Assembly (NCBI GenBank): GCA_016787295.1
Contig: JAEUUX010000032.1
Location: 1-64,000 of the forward strand
Source: Chitinophagales bacterium
GTDB lineage: Bacteria > Bacteroidota > Bacteroidia > Chitinophagales > UBA2359
DNA length: 64,000 nucleotides
Direction of reading: 5' to 3'
Of the stretch, positions 9,268-40,246 are shown one piece after another. The position numbers and the translations under genes were made by a program. The notes under the pieces were generated by a model. The model was not told the origin of the DNA. It saw only the letters and a program-made list of their open reading frames with translations, and did not search any database. Position 1 is the first letter of the stretch, and each line of letters starts with the position of its first letter.

Positions 9268-10605
9268 TTAAATCATCAAAGCCATAGGATTTTCCAACAT
9301 TTTTTTGAGACTTTGTAAAAATTTAGCGCCTGTTGCTCCATCAACTACACGATGGTCGCACGAAAGGGTAAGTTTCATCATTTGTTGTGCCTTAACTTCG
9401 CCGTTCACCACCACTGCTTGTGCTTTGATAGACCCAACAGCCAAGATGCACGCATCGGGTGGGTTGATGATAGCCGTAAACTCGTCAATATCAAACATGC
9501 CCAAATTTGAAATGGTGAAAGTATTGCCTTGCATTTCGGTGGTTTGCAGTTTGCGGTCGCGCGACTTGGTGCCTAATTCGCGGGCTTCGGTGGCGATTTG
9601 TCCGAGTGATTTATTGTCTGCAAATTTGATGACAGGCACCACCAATCCGTTTTCTACAGCCACAGCCATACCGATATGAATGTGGTGGTTTTGGCGAATG
9701 GTATCGCCGAGCCAAGAACTATTCACGGCAGGATGTTGGCGCAGTGCCATAGCGCTTGCTTTAATCACGATGTCGTTAAAAGAAATTTTGATGTCGCCCA
9801 TAGCGTTTAGTTCTTGACGAAAAGCGGTGGCGGCTTCCATATTTATGCTTATGGTGAGGTAGAAATGGGGCGCGGTATTTTTGCTTTCGGTCAATCGACG
9901 GGCAATCGTTTTGCGCATCGAGTTGATAGTGCTTTCTTGGTATTGTTCGTTGCCCACATAACTCCACGCTTGACGTTCGTTGTCGACTATTGTTGTTGTG
10001 GTAGCCGCGACGGTAGCCGTTATAAGCGGCAGTTCGACGGGTGGCGGCACAGGAAGGTGTTCTTGTGTTATTGGCTTGACTTCCACAATTTTGGTATCGA
10101 CAATAGGCACATTTTTTTGCAAATATGCCTCCACATCGCGCTTGACGATTCGTCCTTCATCGCCCGAACCGCTGATATTTGCCAAATCAATTCTGCCTAT
10201 TTCTGCCATTTTTTTAGCCAGTGGAGAGGCTTTTAGGCGGTCATTATCGTTTTGTATGCTTTGTTCTTCGGTTGGGGATATGGTGGTAGTTGTTGTGTCG
10301 GATTCTTGTGTTGTTTGGGCGATAGTTGTCACCGATGTTGGGTTGAGATAGGCGCTTATATCTTCTTTTTCTTGTCCAATAATGGCTAAAATACCTGTAT
10401 TTACTGGCACAGCTTTGCCTGCTTCGGCATGGTAGAGCAACACGCCTTTGGTTGTTGCCTCAAATTCCATGGTTGCCTTATCGCTTTCTATTTCTGCCAA
10501 TAAGTCACCCGATACTACTTTGTCTCCTACTTTTTTATGCCACACAGCCACAACACCCTCTTTCATCGTGTCGCTTAGGGCGGGCATATAAATTACTTCT
10601 GCCAT
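9268..10605 (-). CDS. pdhC: Dihydrolipoamide acetyltransferase, E2 of pyruvate dehydrogenase
   Basis: E2 core enzyme of 445 aa that transfers the acetyl group from lipoyl-lysine to CoA. There is a single N-terminal lipoyl domain (1-80) with lipoyl-Lys43 in EIESDKATME, then a T-rich linker. The peripheral-subunit-binding domain follows (about 123-160, ASPLAKKMAEIG ... GRIVKRDVEAYL), then a second linker rich in V, T and P. The catalytic domain runs from about 230 to the end, with the active-site motif DHRVVDG (His418, Asp422). KxAPHFYLT-like text at about 245 favours pyruvate over 2-oxoglutarate E2, but I cannot exclude a branched-chain complex. It is monocistronic here, with E1 and E3 elsewhere. 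A promoter box lies 40 bases upstream and a strong terminator follows. Confidence 0.9.
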   Translation of the reverse strand: MAEVIYMPALSDTMKEGVVAVWHKKVGDKVVSGDLLAEIESDKATMEFEATTKGVLLYHAEAGKAVPVNTGILAIIGQEKEDISAYLNPTSVTTIAQTTQESDTTTTTISPTEEQSIQNDNDRLKASPLAKKMAEIGRIDLANISGSGDEGRIVKRDVEAYLQKNVPIVDTKIVEVKPITQEHLPVPPPVELPLITATVAATTTTIVDNERQAWSYVGNEQYQESTINSMRKTIARRLTESKNTAPHFYLTISINMEAATAFRQELNAMGDIKISFNDIVIKASAMALRQHPAVNSSWLGDTIRQNHHIHIGMAVAVENGLVVPVIKFADNKSLGQIATEARELGTKSRDRKLQTTEMQGNTFTISNLGMFDIDEFTAIINPPDACILAVGSIKAQAVVVNGEVKAQQMMKLTLSCDHRVVDGATGAKFLQSLKKMLENPMALMI

Positions 10606-10644
10606 AAATTGAAATTATTTTTTTGCGGTGCTTTTTTATGGGTG

Positions 10645-10652
10645 CAAAGGTA
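10645..10652 (-). promoter_or_regulatory. Candidate -7 box of the E2 gene
   Basis: CAAAGGTA is TACCTTTG on the minus strand, 40 bases before the start. A second box (CAAAGATA, 10774-10781) lies further up on the same strand. Neither has a clear -33 TTTG. Confidence 0.5.
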
Positions 10653-10845
10653 GGTGTTTTAGCGTAAAAAACGAAATGTAAGGGCAATATTTTTGCGAGC
10701 TTTGTCATTAAAAGGTGCTGCCATGGGTTTTGTGGGTGGTGTTGGGGGTTTGGTTGTGGTTGCACATTGGCTGCAAAGATACCGCCTTTTTCACTAAATA
10801 CCATAATTACCCCTTCGGAAGCCTGAAACTTCCGTTACGTTATAA

Positions 10846-10880
10846 AAACGCAGACAGGGTTTTGAACCCTGTCTGCGTTC
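10846..10880 (-). terminator. Terminator of the decayed FGE-like gene
   Basis: AACGCAGACAGGGTT and AACCCTGTCTGCGTT pair around a 3-base loop. On the minus strand the stem runs into TTTTT, so it serves the pseudogene that ends at 10907. Confidence 0.8.
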
Positions 10881-10906
10881 AAGCCAAATAAGCGAAACTG
10901 CCCAAA

Positions 10907-11731
10907 CTATGGGACAAGGGTGAGGCGGAAGTTGTAGTTATTGTAGCGAATGTTGGGCGTGTTGTTGTTGCGATTAGCTACCCGACAGTCTCGTGCGTAG
11001 TTGAGCTAACCGCCGCCGCGCAAAACACGAAATGAATCCAAATCTGCTCCTGCTGGGTTATTAGCAGGACTGTTTTTGTAATAGTCAGCCGCATACCAGT
11101 CGCTGCACCATTCCCACACATTGCCACTCATGTCGTATAAACCCAATTCGTTAGGCTGTTTTGTCCTACAGGGTGCGTTTGTCGACCGCTATTGCTACCG
11201 TACCATGCCACTTGGTCTATATCATTGCCACCTGCATATTTGTACCCCTTGCTTTTTAGTCCGCCGCGCGTAGCATATTCCCATTGGGCTTCGGTGGGTA
11301 GCGCGTAGTTTTCGCCCGTTTGGGCGTTTAGTTTTCGCAAAAACTCCTGTACATCGTCCCAGCTTACATTCTCCACAGGGCATTGTGCGCAGCCGCTAAA
11401 ACTGCTGGGATTATTGCCCATTATGGCTTTGCCACTGCGCTTGGGTTATTTCGTATTTGCCTATATAAAAATCGTTTAGGGTTACGCTGTGTACCGGCTT
11501 TTCGCCACCCTCACCGCTTCCCATCGTAAAGGTGCTGCCTCGTACTAATGTCATTTGTAGGTTTATTCCTGTTACTGTTTCGGTATAGGTTTCGGTGACA
11601 TCGGTAGGAGTAGTAGATGTCGGTTCGGTTCCTTTTTGAGAAGTAATGCTGTCAACAAAATATACCCAACAGGCACTACTATCTTCATAAAAAACAACAA
11701 AAACAATAGGTGTGCAACAAAACATTTGCAC
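10907..11731 (-). pseudogene. Decayed formylglycine-generating-enzyme/SUMF1-like lipoprotein gene
   Basis: A recognisable FGE-sulfatase domain is spread over three frames. One frame gives LVRGSTFTMGSGEGGEKPVH and IGKYEITQAQWQ. A shift at the A run of 11428-11430 leads to MGNNPSSFSG, CPVENVSWDDVQEF and LPTEAQWEYATRGG. A second shift at the run of 11159-11163 leads to [20 protein letters not shown] and FRVLRGG. An in-frame TAG (11006-11008) then replaces the Trp expected in GGSW, before NYARDCRVANRNN and the final stop. A hydrophobic start (MKIVVPVGYILLTALLL, from 11688) lies out of frame with TSQKGTEP, suggesting a further indel in a lipoprotein signal. Homopolymer shifts might be sequencing errors, but the TAG is not of that kind. 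A terminator follows. Confidence 0.85.
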
Positions 11732-11748
11732 ACCTATTTAAGCTATAA

Positions 11749-13080
11749 CTAAACCCTAATCTCGCGCCAACGGTCGCTTTGGAGATAGAACCACGACGGC
11801 ACGAGCAATACTGTCCAATACACAAACTCGGCTGTCCAGATATAGGGCAGTCCCAACAACATGATTTTGGCAATCAGATAGGCATAGCCCAGATAAACCA
11901 CCATGCCACAGGCTTCGATAAGCAACGAAAGTCGCATGGCACCCGTTCCCATCAAGCCATTAAACACCACAACCGACATGGAACAAGAGAAAATGACAAA
12001 TATCAAAATCGGCAAAATGGTTTTGCTGCCTTGTACCACGCTCTCGGATTTGGTGAATATGTCGAGAAAGGTTTCGGGAAAAATGACCAATGTGGCACAA
12101 CATACCAGCGTCATCAAAAAACTTAAAAAACAAGTGCGGTAGATAGCCGTCATCACTTCTTCTTGTTTACCTTGTCCAATGAGGTTGCTCACCACCGAGT
12201 TGGCAGTTGAGGCATAGCCCCAAGCAGGTATGCTAAAAAAGGTATAAATCTGTTTGAGAACGGTGGATATGGCTAAGGAGCGTTCGCCCATGTTTTCTAT
12301 CAACACAAACAGCAAAAACCACCCGCCCAAGCCAATAAGGTATTGCAGCACCAAAGGCAGCGACAGTTGGCTAAGGCGCTTGAATATCGTTTTTTCTATG
12401 TGTGGCAGTTTCAGTAGACTATAGGTTCGGGTGTGTTTGTCCAACAACATATATGCCAAACTAACTAAGGTGGTCAACACTTCGGCGATGGAAGAGGCAA
12501 GTCCCGACCCACCGACTCCCATTTGGGGAAAACCATAGTAGCCAAAAACCAATAGATAGTTTAGTACTGCATTGACAACAAACAAAAAAATAGTCGTATA
12601 GGCAATCACACTCGTCCTGCCGATTCCCGTATAGAGCGCCATTAGCACAAAACCCAGAAAACTGAAAAATATGCCAAATGATCGATAATATAGGTATTCT
12701 AAGGAGGCTTGGTACACGGCTTGCGAACTGATGAACAAACCGATGATGTAGGGTGCTGCCAATTGCATAAACAAAAACAACACACTCGCCACCATCAACT
12801 GTAGCACCGTGAGGTTGCCCACAATGTTGCCAATGGCATCGTATCGCCCTTCGCCTGCTCGCCGTGCGATGAGGATTTGTCCGCCGCGCGAAATCCCAAA
12901 TCCCATCATCACCATCACGGTATAAAAAATAGACATCAATCCCGATGCTCCCAAAGCCACCTCTCCTACCCTACCCAAAAAAATCACATCGGTCACGCCA
13001 ATGAGATTTTGAGCCAAACTGCCGAGCATAATAGGGTATGATATTTTCCAAATGTCCTTATAAGAAGCACTAATTTGCAT
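11749..13080 (-). CDS. MATE family efflux transporter
   Basis: Multidrug and toxin extrusion protein of 443 aa with twelve predicted membrane helices, driving cation-coupled export of organic compounds. The N-terminal lobe carries the family pattern (SYPIMLGSLAQNLIGVTDVIFLGRVG, residues 14-39; then GFGISRGGQILIARRAGEG), and the second lobe repeats the fold from about residue 240. The length is normal. It is monocistronic; its start is 97 bases from a dispersed repeat and it reads towards the decayed FGE gene with only 17 bases between them. I cannot infer the substrate. Confidence 0.93.
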   Translation of the reverse strand: MQISASYKDIWKISYPIMLGSLAQNLIGVTDVIFLGRVGEVALGASGLMSIFYTVMVMMGFGISRGGQILIARRAGEGRYDAIGNIVGNLTVLQLMVASVLFLFMQLAAPYIIGLFISSQAVYQASLEYLYYRSFGIFFSFLGFVLMALYTGIGRTSVIAYTTIFLFVVNAVLNYLLVFGYYGFPQMGVGGSGLASSIAEVLTTLVSLAYMLLDKHTRTYSLLKLPHIEKTIFKRLSQLSLPLVLQYLIGLGGWFLLFVLIENMGERSLAISTVLKQIYTFFSIPAWGYASTANSVVSNLIGQGKQEEVMTAIYRTCFLSFLMTLVCCATLVIFPETFLDIFTKSESVVQGSKTILPILIFVIFSCSMSVVVFNGLMGTGAMRLSLLIEACGMVVYLGYAYLIAKIMLLGLPYIWTAEFVYWTVLLVPSWFYLQSDRWREIRV

Positions 13081-13176
13081 ATTCGATAAGAAAAGTTTGT
13101 GTAAATTTTTTGTGTTCGTTGTATTTGTTTTGCTTGCTGCTAATTTGTTTATTGGCTTAGAGAATGCTATTTTTTT

Positions 13177-16655: not shown

Positions 16656-17597
16656 TTGATTACAATAGCCAAAAACGTTTATCTCCATCATTATCTCCCC
16701 CAAACACCCCAAGCCAATCCACTCTACGACACCGTTTTTAAATATCTAATGGAAGACTTAGATATTGCTCGCGAACTGCTGTCACTCATCCTAAACACAG
16801 AAATTATTTCGTTGAGCGTTAAGCCACAAGAGATAACGATGGAGTATACTACTTCCGATAAAACAACCATCAATATATATAGGTTGGACTTCGTTGCTGT
16901 GTTTAAACAACCCAACGGAAAAACAAAAAAAGCGCTCATAGAACTTCAAAAATCTAAACGCACTACCGACATTATGCGGTTTAGACGTTATTTGGGCGAA
17001 AACTATCAGCGCGAAGATGTGGTAACAGAAAATGGTCTTGAAGTGCCAAAACCCTTAGAGATTATTACAATTTATCTTTTGGGTTTCATATTAGACGACG
17101 TACCTGTAGCCATTATGCAGGTCAAAAACAAGTTTGTTAATGCTGTGACGGGAGAGGCATTGCTTTACGAACCACGCGACCAATTTGTCCGTTTGCTCAA
17201 CCATGAAAGCTATACGATACAAATTCCGTTGCTCACCCCCAACACAAAAAACAAAGTAGAACTGACCTTAGACATCTTTAATCAGCGCTACAAAACGGCA
17301 GATAGACACATTTTGGATTACGGAGGTACTCAAGAAACACCTTTGTTAAACAAAATCGTGCATCGCTTGACACGAGCCATAGCCGACGAACAAATGCGCA
17401 AAAAAATGGACATAGAAGACGACTTAGATTCTAAATTTCAGGATTTAGACTCTCAAATTCAAAAGTATAGACAAGAACTGCAAAGCCAAAAACAGGAGTT
17501 GCAAAGCCAAAAACAGGAGTTGCAAAGCCAAAAACAGGAGTTGCAAGACAAAGACAAAGAAATAGCAGCACTCAAAAAGTTACTTTCAAAAAAGTAA
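16656..17597 (+). CDS. PD-(D/E)XK nuclease family transposase (Rpn-like) with coiled-coil tail
   Basis: Protein of 313 aa. Residues 20-220 match the PD-(D/E)XK transposase/Rpn group: NPLYDTVFKYLMED (21-34), then the catalytic YRLDF (Asp78) and IELQK (Glu96, Gln98, Lys99). Rpn relatives make RecA-independent DNA breaks; many Bacteroidota genomes hold dozens of copies. The tail (about 240-313) is a highly charged coiled coil with three perfect copies of heptad LQSQKQE and an AALKKLLSKK end. An in-frame stop at 16647 leaves only TTG (16656) or ATT (16653) as starts, since the next ATG would cut conserved residues. A partial copy of the tail follows at 17653. Confidence 0.8.
   Translation: MITIAKNVYLHHYLPQTPQANPLYDTVFKYLMEDLDIARELLSLILNTEIISLSVKPQEITMEYTTSDKTTINIYRLDFVAVFKQPNGKTKKALIELQKSKRTTDIMRFRRYLGENYQREDVVTENGLEVPKPLEIITIYLLGFILDDVPVAIMQVKNKFVNAVTGEALLYEPRDQFVRLLNHESYTIQIPLLTPNTKNKVELTLDIFNQRYKTADRHILDYGGTQETPLLNKIVHRLTRAIADEQMRKKMDIEDDLDSKFQDLDSQIQKYRQELQSQKQELQSQKQELQSQKQELQDKDKEIAALKKLLSKK
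17481..17543 (+). repeat. Three perfect 21-bp repeats in the nuclease tail
   Basis: Three identical 21-base units coding LQSQKQE-type heptads, at 17481-17501, 17502-17522 and 17523-17543. The perfect identity suggests recent slippage expansion. Confidence 0.9.
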
Positions 17598-17652
17598 GCT
17601 TTATAATTTTTATTTCCTTTATCCCAAATTCACAAAAAAAACAACCTATCTC

Positions 17653-17952
17653 ATGTTAGCAAACAATCACGAAATTACGCATTTGGCACAGGTTATATCC
17701 GACGAACAAATGCGCAAACAAATGGACATAAAAAAATTTTTAGATTCTAAATTTCAAGATTTAGAATCTCAAATTCAAAAGTATAAGCAGGAAATACAGC
17801 GTATAGACGAAGAAATACAGCGTGTAGACGAAGAAATAGCAGCGAAAGACAAAGAAATACAGCGTATGGACGAAATACAGCGTATGGGCGAAGAAATAGC
17901 AGCGAAAGACGAAGAAATAGCAGCACTCAAAAAGTTACTTTCAAAAAAGTAA
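17653..17952 (+). pseudogene. Truncated copy of the nuclease-transposase C-terminal tail
   Basis: Frame of 99 aa starting with ATG. Residues 12-46 parallel the end of the preceding protein (SDEQMRKQMDI, LDSKFQDLESQIQKYKQE against ADEQMRKKMDI, LDSKFQDLDSQIQKYRQE), and it ends in the identical AALKKLLSKK followed by the same GTAAGCTTTA. The nuclease domain is missing. The middle is a coiled coil of EIQRxDEE and EIAAKDKE heptads. It is either a relic of a tandem duplication whose 5' part was lost or a small expressed coiled-coil partner of the full protein. The frame is intact, so expression is possible. Confidence 0.65.
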
Positions 17953-37285: not shown

Positions 37286-37660
37286 CTACTTATGAATATT
37301 CTTGAGTTTTTTATCAGTTGTTCTTTTAGCATCGGAGGTTTGATGATAAATACTGTCAAGAATATTGTAAATATTTTGATTAGTCAAAATTTGTTGCTGT
37401 AGCAGCTCTTTTTGTTGTTTTGATTGTAATGATATTTCTTCCTTTATTTGTTTCTGAGTTCCATCAGTAACTGATATAATACTTATAATAGCTGATATAA
37501 TACTTATAATAAGAGAAAGAAGTGCTATAATTAAAGAGCACATCGAAATTTTATAAGATTTTGATGATTCTTTTTTAGCATCTTCGGCATTTTTATAAAG
37601 AAGTTCAATAATTTGCTTTTCTTCTTCTTTCATATCCAAGCGTTGAATAAGCGGAATCAT
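37286..37660 (-). CDS. Small membrane coiled-coil protein, unknown
   Basis: Protein of 124 aa (or 115 from the second Met). An acidic/basic helix (10-38) is followed by one strongly hydrophobic Ile/Ser-rich helix (about 40-65) and a Gln/Lys-rich coiled coil to the end. I recognise no family. The membrane segment contains a duplicated ISIISAI/ISIISVT heptad caused by a 21-bp tandem duplication (37471-37512). It lies on the same strand as the cold-shock/zinc protein, about 220 bases after it, and could belong with it. A+T content is high. Confidence 0.6.
   Translation of the reverse strand: MIPLIQRLDMKEEEKQIIELLYKNAEDAKKESSKSYKISMCSLIIALLSLIISIISAIISIISVTDGTQKQIKEEISLQSKQQKELLQQQILTNQNIYNILDSIYHQTSDAKRTTDKKLKNIHK
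37471..37512 (-). repeat. 21-bp tandem duplication in the small membrane protein
   Basis: Two adjacent 21-base copies beginning CTGATATAATACTTATAATA encode ISIIS heptads in the membrane helix. Confidence 0.85.
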
Positions 37661-37884: not shown

Positions 37885-40119
37885 CTATTTGGCAAATACT
37901 TTCTTATGAATATGATAAATTGTGTCATACTTATCTTTATTGCTTCTTAAATCTATCACATGATTGCAATTAGAACAAGTAAAAACTTTTGCTGAATCTA
38001 TATTTGGAACTATAGATGGTTCAACAACCAATTGTGAAAAATTATCTTCTTTTTGATAATTTGGAATATTAAACCCAATGGATATTAGTTTCGATATTTT
38101 TTTTCTGTATTCGTCAACTGATAACTTTTTTTTCACAAATATAAACCACCACTTTCCGTATTCTCTCTGGCCACTTTTTAAAATATAAGGATTTGTATCT
38201 TTATTTTCGATAAACCAATTCAATACTTTAGGGAATTCATTGGTCAATTGATTATTATTACTCATAACTTCTCCACACTTGTTACAACATAACTGACCCA
38301 AATCTTTATGTCCAACCAAATGACAAGGATAAGGTCTATCAAGTATATTTTCATAGACCCATTGTCGTTTTTGAAGTTGAGGGCTATTACAACAAGCGTT
38401 ACAGTAGTTACAAACATACCAACCACAATCTGGGTGTCCTCCTTCCGGATTACATTTTATATTATCGCGACTGTCAATAATTTCATTACATTTTCCATTC
38501 AAACAATGAGAGATGTAAATAGATTTTTCTTTTGCTTTGCAATTATCGTTTGTGCAACAAAAATCCGAGACTCCCCAAAATGAATATAATGTCTTGCCTA
38601 TAGGTCTTAAAATTTCGTTACAACCCCTGCACTTTAAATGTTCTAAAAAACGATTTACCTTATTTATGACATTTAGCAAAATTTCATAGTGAGTTTCATC
38701 GAATTTAATTTTAAGAATATATAAACAATCCCAAAGTGAATACTGTTCCCATTGTTCTTTGTTATGTAATTTTCTCGATAAACTATAACATTTATCATTC
38801 TCGCACCACCAATATTCAAGCCCTGTTTTTTTGCATAATTGTTCTACTTTTCTACCATCACATATCACAGCAAACCGTGGTTTCTTGTCGGCTAGTTTTA
38901 ACTGAAATTTCGTAGAATCTTCATTATCGCTATTATCATTTTGATTAACAATTGCTCTATATCTACCATTGCATTTATCAAAAAAATCTTTAATCTGAAG
39001 CAATTCATTTGGGTTTTTTACTTGTTTAGCAATTATTTCAAAGATTGTTTTCTTTTCTGTAACTCTTGCTTTAGCCAAATCATTAATTGCTTGAATAACA
39101 ATACTCAAACTATAATCTATATTATCGCCTTGTATTCTTACCAAATCGACAGCATTTAAAACAATTAAACCTTCATGAATTAGTTTAATTGTTCTCTTAA
39201 AAAATTTTACCTGTTTTTCTACATTTAAATCGTTCACAAAAACAACAAATTCATCAAAATTAAAGTAATTGGAATATAGGTCAAGCCATAATTCCAATCT
39301 ATAATTTGATGAGCAATTTTTTACAGTTGACGCAATAATTTCTTCGTAATTTTCAATCAAATACTGCTTGGCATATCTTAAAAAGAATATTATTTTTTTA
39401 TATTTATTTAAATCATTGATATATCCTAAACTTGATAGCGTTTTTAAAATCAAATCGTTTTTTTCTGTTTCTTTGCAGCGTTTAAAAATTTGGGCAACTG
39501 TTTTTTCAGAAGGATTATTTAGTATTTTGAAAATTGCGTATTCAATATCAATATATTCATTTGTCCCTTCAAGCCAAAATTGAAAAAGCAGTTCTCTATC
39601 TAGTTTTGAAAATATTAAAGTGGTAAAATATAAATAATCACTAGGGAACAACGATTTCGCAAGAGAAATCATTGTTTTTGCTTTATCAAAAGTAAAACTG
39701 GTATTTTCTATTAGATCCGAAAATAATCTTTTAAGTTTGCTATTTATTATTTCATCTATATTAATATTAAGTTTTTGAATTGAATTAAATACCCTTTTTT
39801 GAACAAGGTTATAATCTGAATAAATTCCTTTTTCTGCGAATAGGCTTAAAAATTCAGAAAAAAGGAATATAATATTTTCTTCATTTTCTACTAGTTTAAC
39901 ATTATATGCTTCTAAACTATTTTCCATGCGGCTTGATTTTTTTTCAAAAACTACTACTTCATTTTCAATAAATTTTTGCATAGATTGTCCAACAGCAATA
40001 CCTCTTGAGTTAAAATAAATATCACCCAATTTAGAATGCTGAATGAAACCATAATAGGCATCTCGTTGTTGGTCATGAAACCATTTTATTACACCTATAT
40101 GTTTATTACCTAGTTCCAT
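37885..40119 (-). CDS. Cold-shock-domain protein with multiple C-terminal zinc ribbons, 744 aa
   Basis: Large protein of unknown role. Residues 7-70 resemble a cold-shock (OB) fold: GVIKWFHDQQ, then YYGFIQHSKLGDIYFNSRGI, with the aromatic positions used for single-stranded nucleic-acid binding. Residues 75-430 are helical with no recognised domain. From about 425 on there are many Cys pairs: VICDGRKVEQLC and WWCENDKC, then KCRGC, FCCTNDNC, HCLNGKC, GWYVCNYCNACC, LCCNKCG and FTCSNCNH, enough for about five zinc sites. The pattern suggests a nucleic-acid-binding scaffold. I see no helicase, nuclease or kinase motif. It is very A+T rich and monocistronic or paired with the small membrane gene. 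It has a good promoter at 40215-40246. Confidence 0.8.
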   Translation of the reverse strand: MELGNKHIGVIKWFHDQQRDAYYGFIQHSKLGDIYFNSRGIAVGQSMQKFIENEVVVFEKKSSRMENSLEAYNVKLVENEENIIFLFSEFLSLFAEKGIYSDYNLVQKRVFNSIQKLNINIDEIINSKLKRLFSDLIENTSFTFDKAKTMISLAKSLFPSDYLYFTTLIFSKLDRELLFQFWLEGTNEYIDIEYAIFKILNNPSEKTVAQIFKRCKETEKNDLILKTLSSLGYINDLNKYKKIIFFLRYAKQYLIENYEEIIASTVKNCSSNYRLELWLDLYSNYFNFDEFVVFVNDLNVEKQVKFFKRTIKLIHEGLIVLNAVDLVRIQGDNIDYSLSIVIQAINDLAKARVTEKKTIFEIIAKQVKNPNELLQIKDFFDKCNGRYRAIVNQNDNSDNEDSTKFQLKLADKKPRFAVICDGRKVEQLCKKTGLEYWWCENDKCYSLSRKLHNKEQWEQYSLWDCLYILKIKFDETHYEILLNVINKVNRFLEHLKCRGCNEILRPIGKTLYSFWGVSDFCCTNDNCKAKEKSIYISHCLNGKCNEIIDSRDNIKCNPEGGHPDCGWYVCNYCNACCNSPQLQKRQWVYENILDRPYPCHLVGHKDLGQLCCNKCGEVMSNNNQLTNEFPKVLNWFIENKDTNPYILKSGQREYGKWWFIFVKKKLSVDEYRKKISKLISIGFNIPNYQKEDNFSQLVVEPSIVPNIDSAKVFTCSNCNHVIDLRSNKDKYDTIYHIHKKVFAK

Positions 40120-40214: not shown

Positions 40215-40246
40215 CAAAGATACATTTTTCCCACCACATAAGCAAA
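40215..40246 (-). promoter_or_regulatory. Promoter of the cold-shock/zinc gene
   Basis: On the minus strand TTTG (40246-40243), 20 bases, then TATCTTTG (40222-40215), matching the phylum consensus. The gene starts about 95 bases on. Confidence 0.65.

Follow-up and report, generated by a model that had tools for sequence, protein, structure and literature searches.

The stretch of DNA analysed here (64,000 nucleotides; hereafter the window) encodes on its reverse strand a protein of 744 residues, bounded by an ATG start and an ordinary stop in the ORF list and its translation, that joins an N-terminal cold-shock domain to a long helical-repeat body and a Cys-rich C-terminal region (Table 1). 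The gene is foreign by composition: its G+C content is 27.9%, the window as a whole having 40.0% and most neighbouring genes 34-44%, in agreement with the high A+T content recorded in the initial annotation. The promoter claimed there corresponds to a putative site of the Bacteroidota-type consensus, TTG-N20-TATCTTTG, a single match situated 96-126 bases 5' of the ATG. Just downstream, on the same strand, is a low-GC ORF of 124 aa, possibly a part of the same transferred unit; no relative of it was seen beside the other members of the family described below. The flanks comprise an RND pump operon on one side and HxlR, FMN-reductase and pirin genes on the other, and the wider setting is one of core genes, e.g. 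those for GldN and GldK/PorK (gliding/type IX secretion), the RND pump and cytochrome oxidase. There is no defence gene within about five genes on either side, and core metabolism or secretion accounts for the parts of the window that were scanned. Thus, of the earlier placement of the gene in an accessory stretch, the foreign composition stands, whereas the surroundings are those of core genes. The window copy may be a single-gene insertion; in an attempted empty-site comparison, near relatives were found to lack the gene flanking it.

Table 1. The gene studied, its predicted domains and the adjacent features, in coordinates of the window
Feature	Coordinates	Strand	Basis
Gene for the 744-aa cold-shock domain/helical-repeat/Cys-rich protein	37885..40119	-	ORF, translation, family alignments
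Bacteroidota-type promoter-like site (putative), TTG-N20-TATCTTTG	40215..40245	-	Pattern match to consensus
Cold-shock (OB) domain, residues 6-76	39892..40104	-	phmmer, AlphaFold, Foldseek, Pfam cold-shock domain in 19/23 members
Helical-repeat (alpha-solenoid) body, residues 80-383	38971..39882	-	AlphaFold; generic solenoid matches
Conserved Cys-rich core, C420 to C577	38389..38862	-	Alignments
C-terminal zinc ribbon (predicted), C612/C615 and C715/C718	37966..38286	-	Alignment; sequence of the L078 protein
Predicted small membrane/coiled-coil ORF, 124 aa, low GC (27%)	37286..37660	-	ORF list; membrane/coiled-coil character judged by eye

The cold-shock or OB-type N-terminus proposed in the initial annotation was recovered by several routes. 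In a phmmer search against solved structures a Thermotoga Csp matched residues 9-78 of the window protein (E 2.9e-4), and the AlphaFold model (mean pLDDT 63) shows a predicted five-stranded OB barrel at residues 6-76, as in the Cold-shock domain (PF00313), for which the best Foldseek matches are the cold-shock domains of UNR, CspB and CspA (probability 1.00, E ~0.01). By itself, the window protein does not reach the Pfam gathering threshold for PF00313, and its match to the PADLOC CSD_V profile is likewise sub-threshold (E 0.29, residues 8-76). Of 23 family members, 19 match the same Pfam domain at E 0.05 or below, and the best match, at E 1.7e-9 and over the Pfam cut-off, is that of the paralogue encoded in the genome of the window; hence, the cold-shock domain of the family is not a chance resemblance. 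It bears KWF and GFI/GFG motifs. Structure comparison of a canonical 1156-aa relative (mean pLDDT 79) placed its first 67 residues with the cold-shock proteins (Z 9.4, 1.6 A over 65 residues), and the remainder of that model displays a long alpha-solenoid after the cold-shock domain. The long helical body, claimed earlier, thus has its counterpart both in this solenoid and in the predicted helices at residues 80-366 of the window protein. The resemblance of the solenoid to karyopherins, TSC and spliceosomal proteins was set aside as the generic likeness of helical repeats, and the absence of a family from the structure match list was given no weight as evidence.

In the alignment of 23 members, conservation is highest in the Cys core, which contains the motifs C-x4-C, CxxC...C-x4-C, HC-x4-C...DSR and CxxCG.CC. 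C420, C444, N486, C497, C500, C522, C539, D549, R551, C570 and C573 are invariant in all 23, and S550, H538 and most of the other Cys are nearly so. Eighteen Cys of the window protein (420, 439, 444, 497, 500, 522, 527, 539, 544, 556, 570, 573, 576, 577, 612, 615, 715 and 718) are shared by some 90% or more of the relatives in the alignment. As judged from this spacing and conservation they fit four to five predicted zinc sites, which makes the about five zinc ribbons of the initial annotation a reasonable but unproven estimate. The Cys-rich end is modelled poorly and with low confidence, and by sequence the core had no relative among solved structures (best E 0.35). Between them, the Pfam, NCBIfam and PADLOC searches returned no meaningful match for the window protein (none from NCBIfam, sub-threshold ones from Pfam and PADLOC), and matches to AcrIIC3 (E 0.02), HypA (0.02), Kindlin_2_N (0.2) and ribosomal eS26 (0.35) were judged to be due to chance. 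No enzyme motif emerged in the window protein from family, sequence or fold searches, just as had been read from the sequence at the outset. Seven of the 23 relatives further display an insert with a weak match to the HARP domain (PF07443; best E 3e-5). The window protein has no match to it, and the corresponding stretch is missing from it in the alignment. Its nearest-type relative, a 770-aa protein with the same domain order (L078), is also without the insert, and these two alone share an insertion in the last zinc ribbon.

Relatives of the window protein, 600-1260 aa in length, were traced to about 24 distinct loci, mainly in Bacteroidota/Chlorobi-type genomes and Enterobacteria. A scan of genome contigs with the window protein as sole query recovered no relatives and an alignment of the first seven relatives gave no usable pattern; four closer relatives yielded one, and the scan with it added loci from Flavobacterium, Psychroserpens, Taibaiella, Symbiothrix, Saprospiraceae and Weeksellaceae, together with Chlorobiaceae-type and Ignavibacteriales MAGs and one Gallicola MAG, which may be mis-binned. 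Since a profile that included the cold-shock domain matched about 300 genomes via ordinary CspA-like proteins, later surveys were restricted to the Cys core. The family is present in about 2% of the genomes of a Bacteroidota sample, in 1 of 398 from Pseudomonadota and in 1 of 199 from Bacillota, the last being the Gallicola MAG itself. With a canonical member as the tblastn query a Prevotella plasmid and 128 Klebsiella plasmids were recovered, and with the Klebsiella protein 131 plasmid records, 127 being of conjugative type; phage records and IMG/VR viral contigs contained no family match. Members from two different bacterial families (L076 and L077) are closely related and have the same hsd operon linked to them. 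The dN/dS of 0.14-0.19 between the Klebsiella, E. coli and G933 copies indicates that the protein is maintained by purifying selection. One Ignavibacteriales member (L027:10001-13140) is split into two overlapping reading frames by a frameshift, reflecting a pseudogene or an assembly error. The genome of the window itself encodes a second, longer copy (G000:C41, L010:7177-10290 with 10391-13175), of canonical length; the genes directly downstream of it encode a NACHT protein and a PDDEXK nuclease of the YhcG type. In sequence the window copy has diverged from the canonical members, and long branches make its position in the tree unsure.

The family is thus sparse, horizontally spread and undescribed. 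No description of it was found in the literature searched, including PMC11090510, PMC13092281, PMC12839542 and PMC7159879; a cold-shock domain goes unmentioned in the DefensePredictor and BREX surveys (main texts), whose supplements could hold the family as an unnamed entry. The E. coli and Klebsiella members are annotated only as 'cold shock domain-containing protein'.

The survey of gene neighbours by way of the Cys pattern, a check proposed in the initial annotation, indicates that known defence systems adjoin or enclose the gene in at least 12 of the about 20 loci with readable neighbours (L018 and L022 being too short to judge and the neighbours of L065 left out). These include type I restriction-modification (RM), BREX, Wadjet, Septu, a Septu-like pair, GmrSD, YhcG/AbiE and NACHT. 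Associations with type I RM take several forms: HsdR is encoded 2 bp upstream of the member on the Prevotella plasmid (L009), and an HsdR C-terminus lies upstream in L025. In a Klebsiella plasmid and E. coli chromosomes the member is placed between hsdS-YecA and hsdR, and in the Pseudomonadota genome G933 between YecA-like and HsdR-like genes. In L076 and L077 it is divergent from an hsdM-like gene and its operon, hsdS and hsdR of which are assigned from gene order and length. One BREX operon, which also has BrxL and an Eco57I methylase, holds the member between PglZ and a Schlafen gene; another locus combines methylase/HsdS-like genes, an AAA gene, DndE-HerA and GmrSD, with the member 19 bp after GmrSD. 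Elsewhere the member follows JetC-JetD of Wadjet, PtuA-PtuB of Septu (with a restriction helicase) or a PDC-M62A/B pair, a Septu-like candidate. YhcG, FRG, RhuM and AbiE genes also adjoin members, YhcG being accompanied by NACHT beside the own-genome paralogue, and a HEPN-like gene is found about 400 bp downstream of the member in L028. No known defence gene was present among the scanned neighbours in L012, L027, L029 and L063.

We quantified this tendency with the N6_Mtase domain in 15 member-bearing genomes, counting all matches and assuming uniform placement: five member loci have one within 10 kb against 0.74 expected (P 3e-4) and three within 5 kb against 0.43 expected (P 0.007), and in one genome (G461) the sole N6_Mtase is about 2 kb from the member. 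Because defence islands cluster, the test points to a defence-island gene and not to dependence on restriction. Location in defence islands hence holds for the family across unrelated genomes, but not for the window copy. That copy stands alone among core genes and is divergent from the canonical members, so its role in defence is one that we infer from the family.

Some further neighbours deserve mention in their own right. Small proteins that by eye resemble PD-(D/E)xK resolvase-type nucleases are encoded immediately upstream of the member at two unrelated loci (L014:7731-8174 and L021:9401-9892) and had no Pfam match. One uncharacterised protein is encoded near members both on the Prevotella plasmid (334 aa, L009:703-1707) and in a Symbiothrix MAG (at least 285 aa, L020:1-858). 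In G590, TIR-like sequences, again judged by eye, are situated within about 8 kb of the window-type relative (L078:1552-3015 and 16729-17718).

E. coli offers natural presence and absence of the gene. The 9.3-kb Klebsiella operon is matched in 648 of 5426 complete E. coli genomes, and in 195 of these the match covers at least 80% of the operon; the gene for the cold-shock domain protein is full length (at least 80% covered) in 198, always on the chromosome. The same island also occurs with hsdM-hsdS-YecA-hsdR operons devoid of this gene, or with hsdM-hsdS-hsdR alone, and the operons without it keep an annotated full-length hsdR. In some genomes just the last 210 bases of the gene are left before hsdR, with an IS1 copy upstream, a sign of its loss; in E. 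coli p10A (L084:6001-6210) this remnant lies behind the IS1 copy and a TIR-domain gene. Hhe, DUF262 proteins and an anti-phage dCTP deaminase are also encoded in the island. Within the hsd operon of enterobacteria the YecA gene is 5' of the gene for the cold-shock domain protein and overlaps it (L066:10125-10808, L081:8716-9399); YecA occupies the same operon position in other E. coli that are without that gene, and may be a partner of the protein or a separate module.

The changing partners, the natural absence from intact RM operons and the solitary copies together suggest that the protein acts on its own or via a general partner. This leads to the proposal, which we rank first and regard as probable, that it is an optional immune sensor or scaffold of an undescribed, horizontally spread family associated with defence islands. 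The combination of a cold-shock domain, a solenoid, a zinc core and at times a HARP-like module is, by analogy with the known properties of cold-shock, zinc-ribbon and HARP domains, most consistent with a nucleic-acid-binding scaffold. The family is accordingly predicted to bind nucleic acid and zinc and to have an anti-phage effect. The N-terminal cold-shock domain would contact single-stranded RNA or DNA, the long alpha-solenoid would offer a protein-binding surface, and to these some members would add the HARP-like module, ahead of a presumptive zinc core with the conserved DSR motif. The protein may thereby capture phage RNA or ssDNA intermediates and either block their use or pass them on to a resident nuclease. 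It would form an optional second layer where type I RM, BREX, Septu or Wadjet is present, and would also be able to act alone, as in the window. The choice of nucleic acid and any coupling to HsdR or other partners are more speculative elements of this proposal; as partners vary between loci, no single mechanism is implied. The large, transferred nucleic-acid-binding scaffold, possibly for defence, that the initial annotation had suspected as an undescribed component is supported on these grounds: relatives lie beside or inside defence loci, and neither a confident match to a characterised family nor a conserved housekeeping context was found. Its other option, stress, gained no support.

Next in rank, though unlikely, is an accessory subunit or regulator dedicated to type I-like restriction, which would recruit HsdR, control expression or alleviate self-restriction. 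Members do lie in or beside hsd operons in L009, L025, L066, L076, L077, L080 and E. coli, overlapping or closely spaced with the genes of the operon. Against such dedication, others adjoin BREX, Wadjet, Septu or NACHT/YhcG, the window copy is alone, and the E. coli hsd operons that are without the gene retain their annotated full-length hsdR. Less probable still, and on a par with each other, are two further readings. Cold-shock domains are classic RNA chaperones, and a general RNA chaperone or stress protein might have reached defence islands by hitch-hiking on mobile elements, consistent with its spread on conjugative plasmids and its solitary state in the window; such a role is hard to square with the sparse distribution (about 2% of the sampled Bacteroidota genomes), the tight operonic embedding in different defence systems and the presence-absence pattern at a defence hotspot of E. 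coli that also harbours Hhe and DUF262 genes. Alternatively, the Cys-rich core might conceal an unrecognised enzyme acting as the effector, e.g. a nuclease using the conserved DSR and His, as could be read from the invariant D549, R551 and N486 and the nearly invariant S550 and H538; these residues are set among likely zinc ligands and may be structural, and no family, sequence or fold match to any enzyme was obtained. A plasmid- or island-borne counter-defence or element-maintenance protein guarding mobile DNA, suggested by the about 130 mostly conjugative Klebsiella-type plasmids, is highly improbable given that phage records and IMG/VR contigs hold no relative and that most distinct copies are chromosomal, beside restriction genes.

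Returning to the optional immune sensor or scaffold, we tentatively raise the stronger possibility, itself rather doubtful, that the family constitutes a new single-gene anti-phage class, in which phage RNA or ssDNA would be bound by the cold-shock domain and by a zinc core borne on a solenoid arm, with no catalytic domain; as a modular back-up, it would have entered type I RM, BREX, Septu and Wadjet loci on independent occasions. Tractable organisms carry the family: it is optional in the type I RM operon of a defence hotspot in E. coli and is also found on common Klebsiella plasmids, and closely related natural operons with and without the gene allow an immediate test of its contribution to immunity. 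Should it prove active, immune components would gain a non-catalytic type that binds RNA/ssDNA, and the extra genes in some restriction operons would be explained.

Several known systems provide points of comparison. The N-terminal OB barrel is shared with cold-shock domain proteins (PF00313; CspA, CspB, UNR and YB-1), whereas here it is a single domain of a 600-1260-aa protein and, in the window protein, a divergent one. The weak HARP match (PF07443, SMARCAL1/HepA-related) in seven of 23 relatives recalls a module that binds branched DNA; these proteins have no helicase, and the window-type proteins are without the module. None of the type I RM subunit domains (N6 methylase, target-recognition, helicase-nuclease) is present in the window protein, and separate hsdM, hsdS and hsdR genes flank the member in the Klebsiella plasmid and E. 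coli operons. In lying within hsd or BREX operons as an optional addition, the member resembles accessory genes such as PrrC, Schlafen and GmrSD, but its product is without a recognised nuclease or toxin domain. There is also a parallel in domain content with the CoCoNuT type IV restriction systems, McrBC relatives with cold-shock, coiled-coil and zinc-ribbon domains and predicted RNA targeting (PMC11090510), which likewise place cold-shock domains and zinc ribbons on long helical parts in defence loci. The architecture is nevertheless a different one, with no McrB GTPase, McrC or PD-(D/E)xK domain in the family protein, and neither McrB nor McrC was found among the scanned neighbours of family members. 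As it is without the CoCoNuT GTPase and nuclease, the family is not a member of that group, which stands instead as a published precedent for sensors combining cold-shock domains and zinc ribbons in restriction loci.
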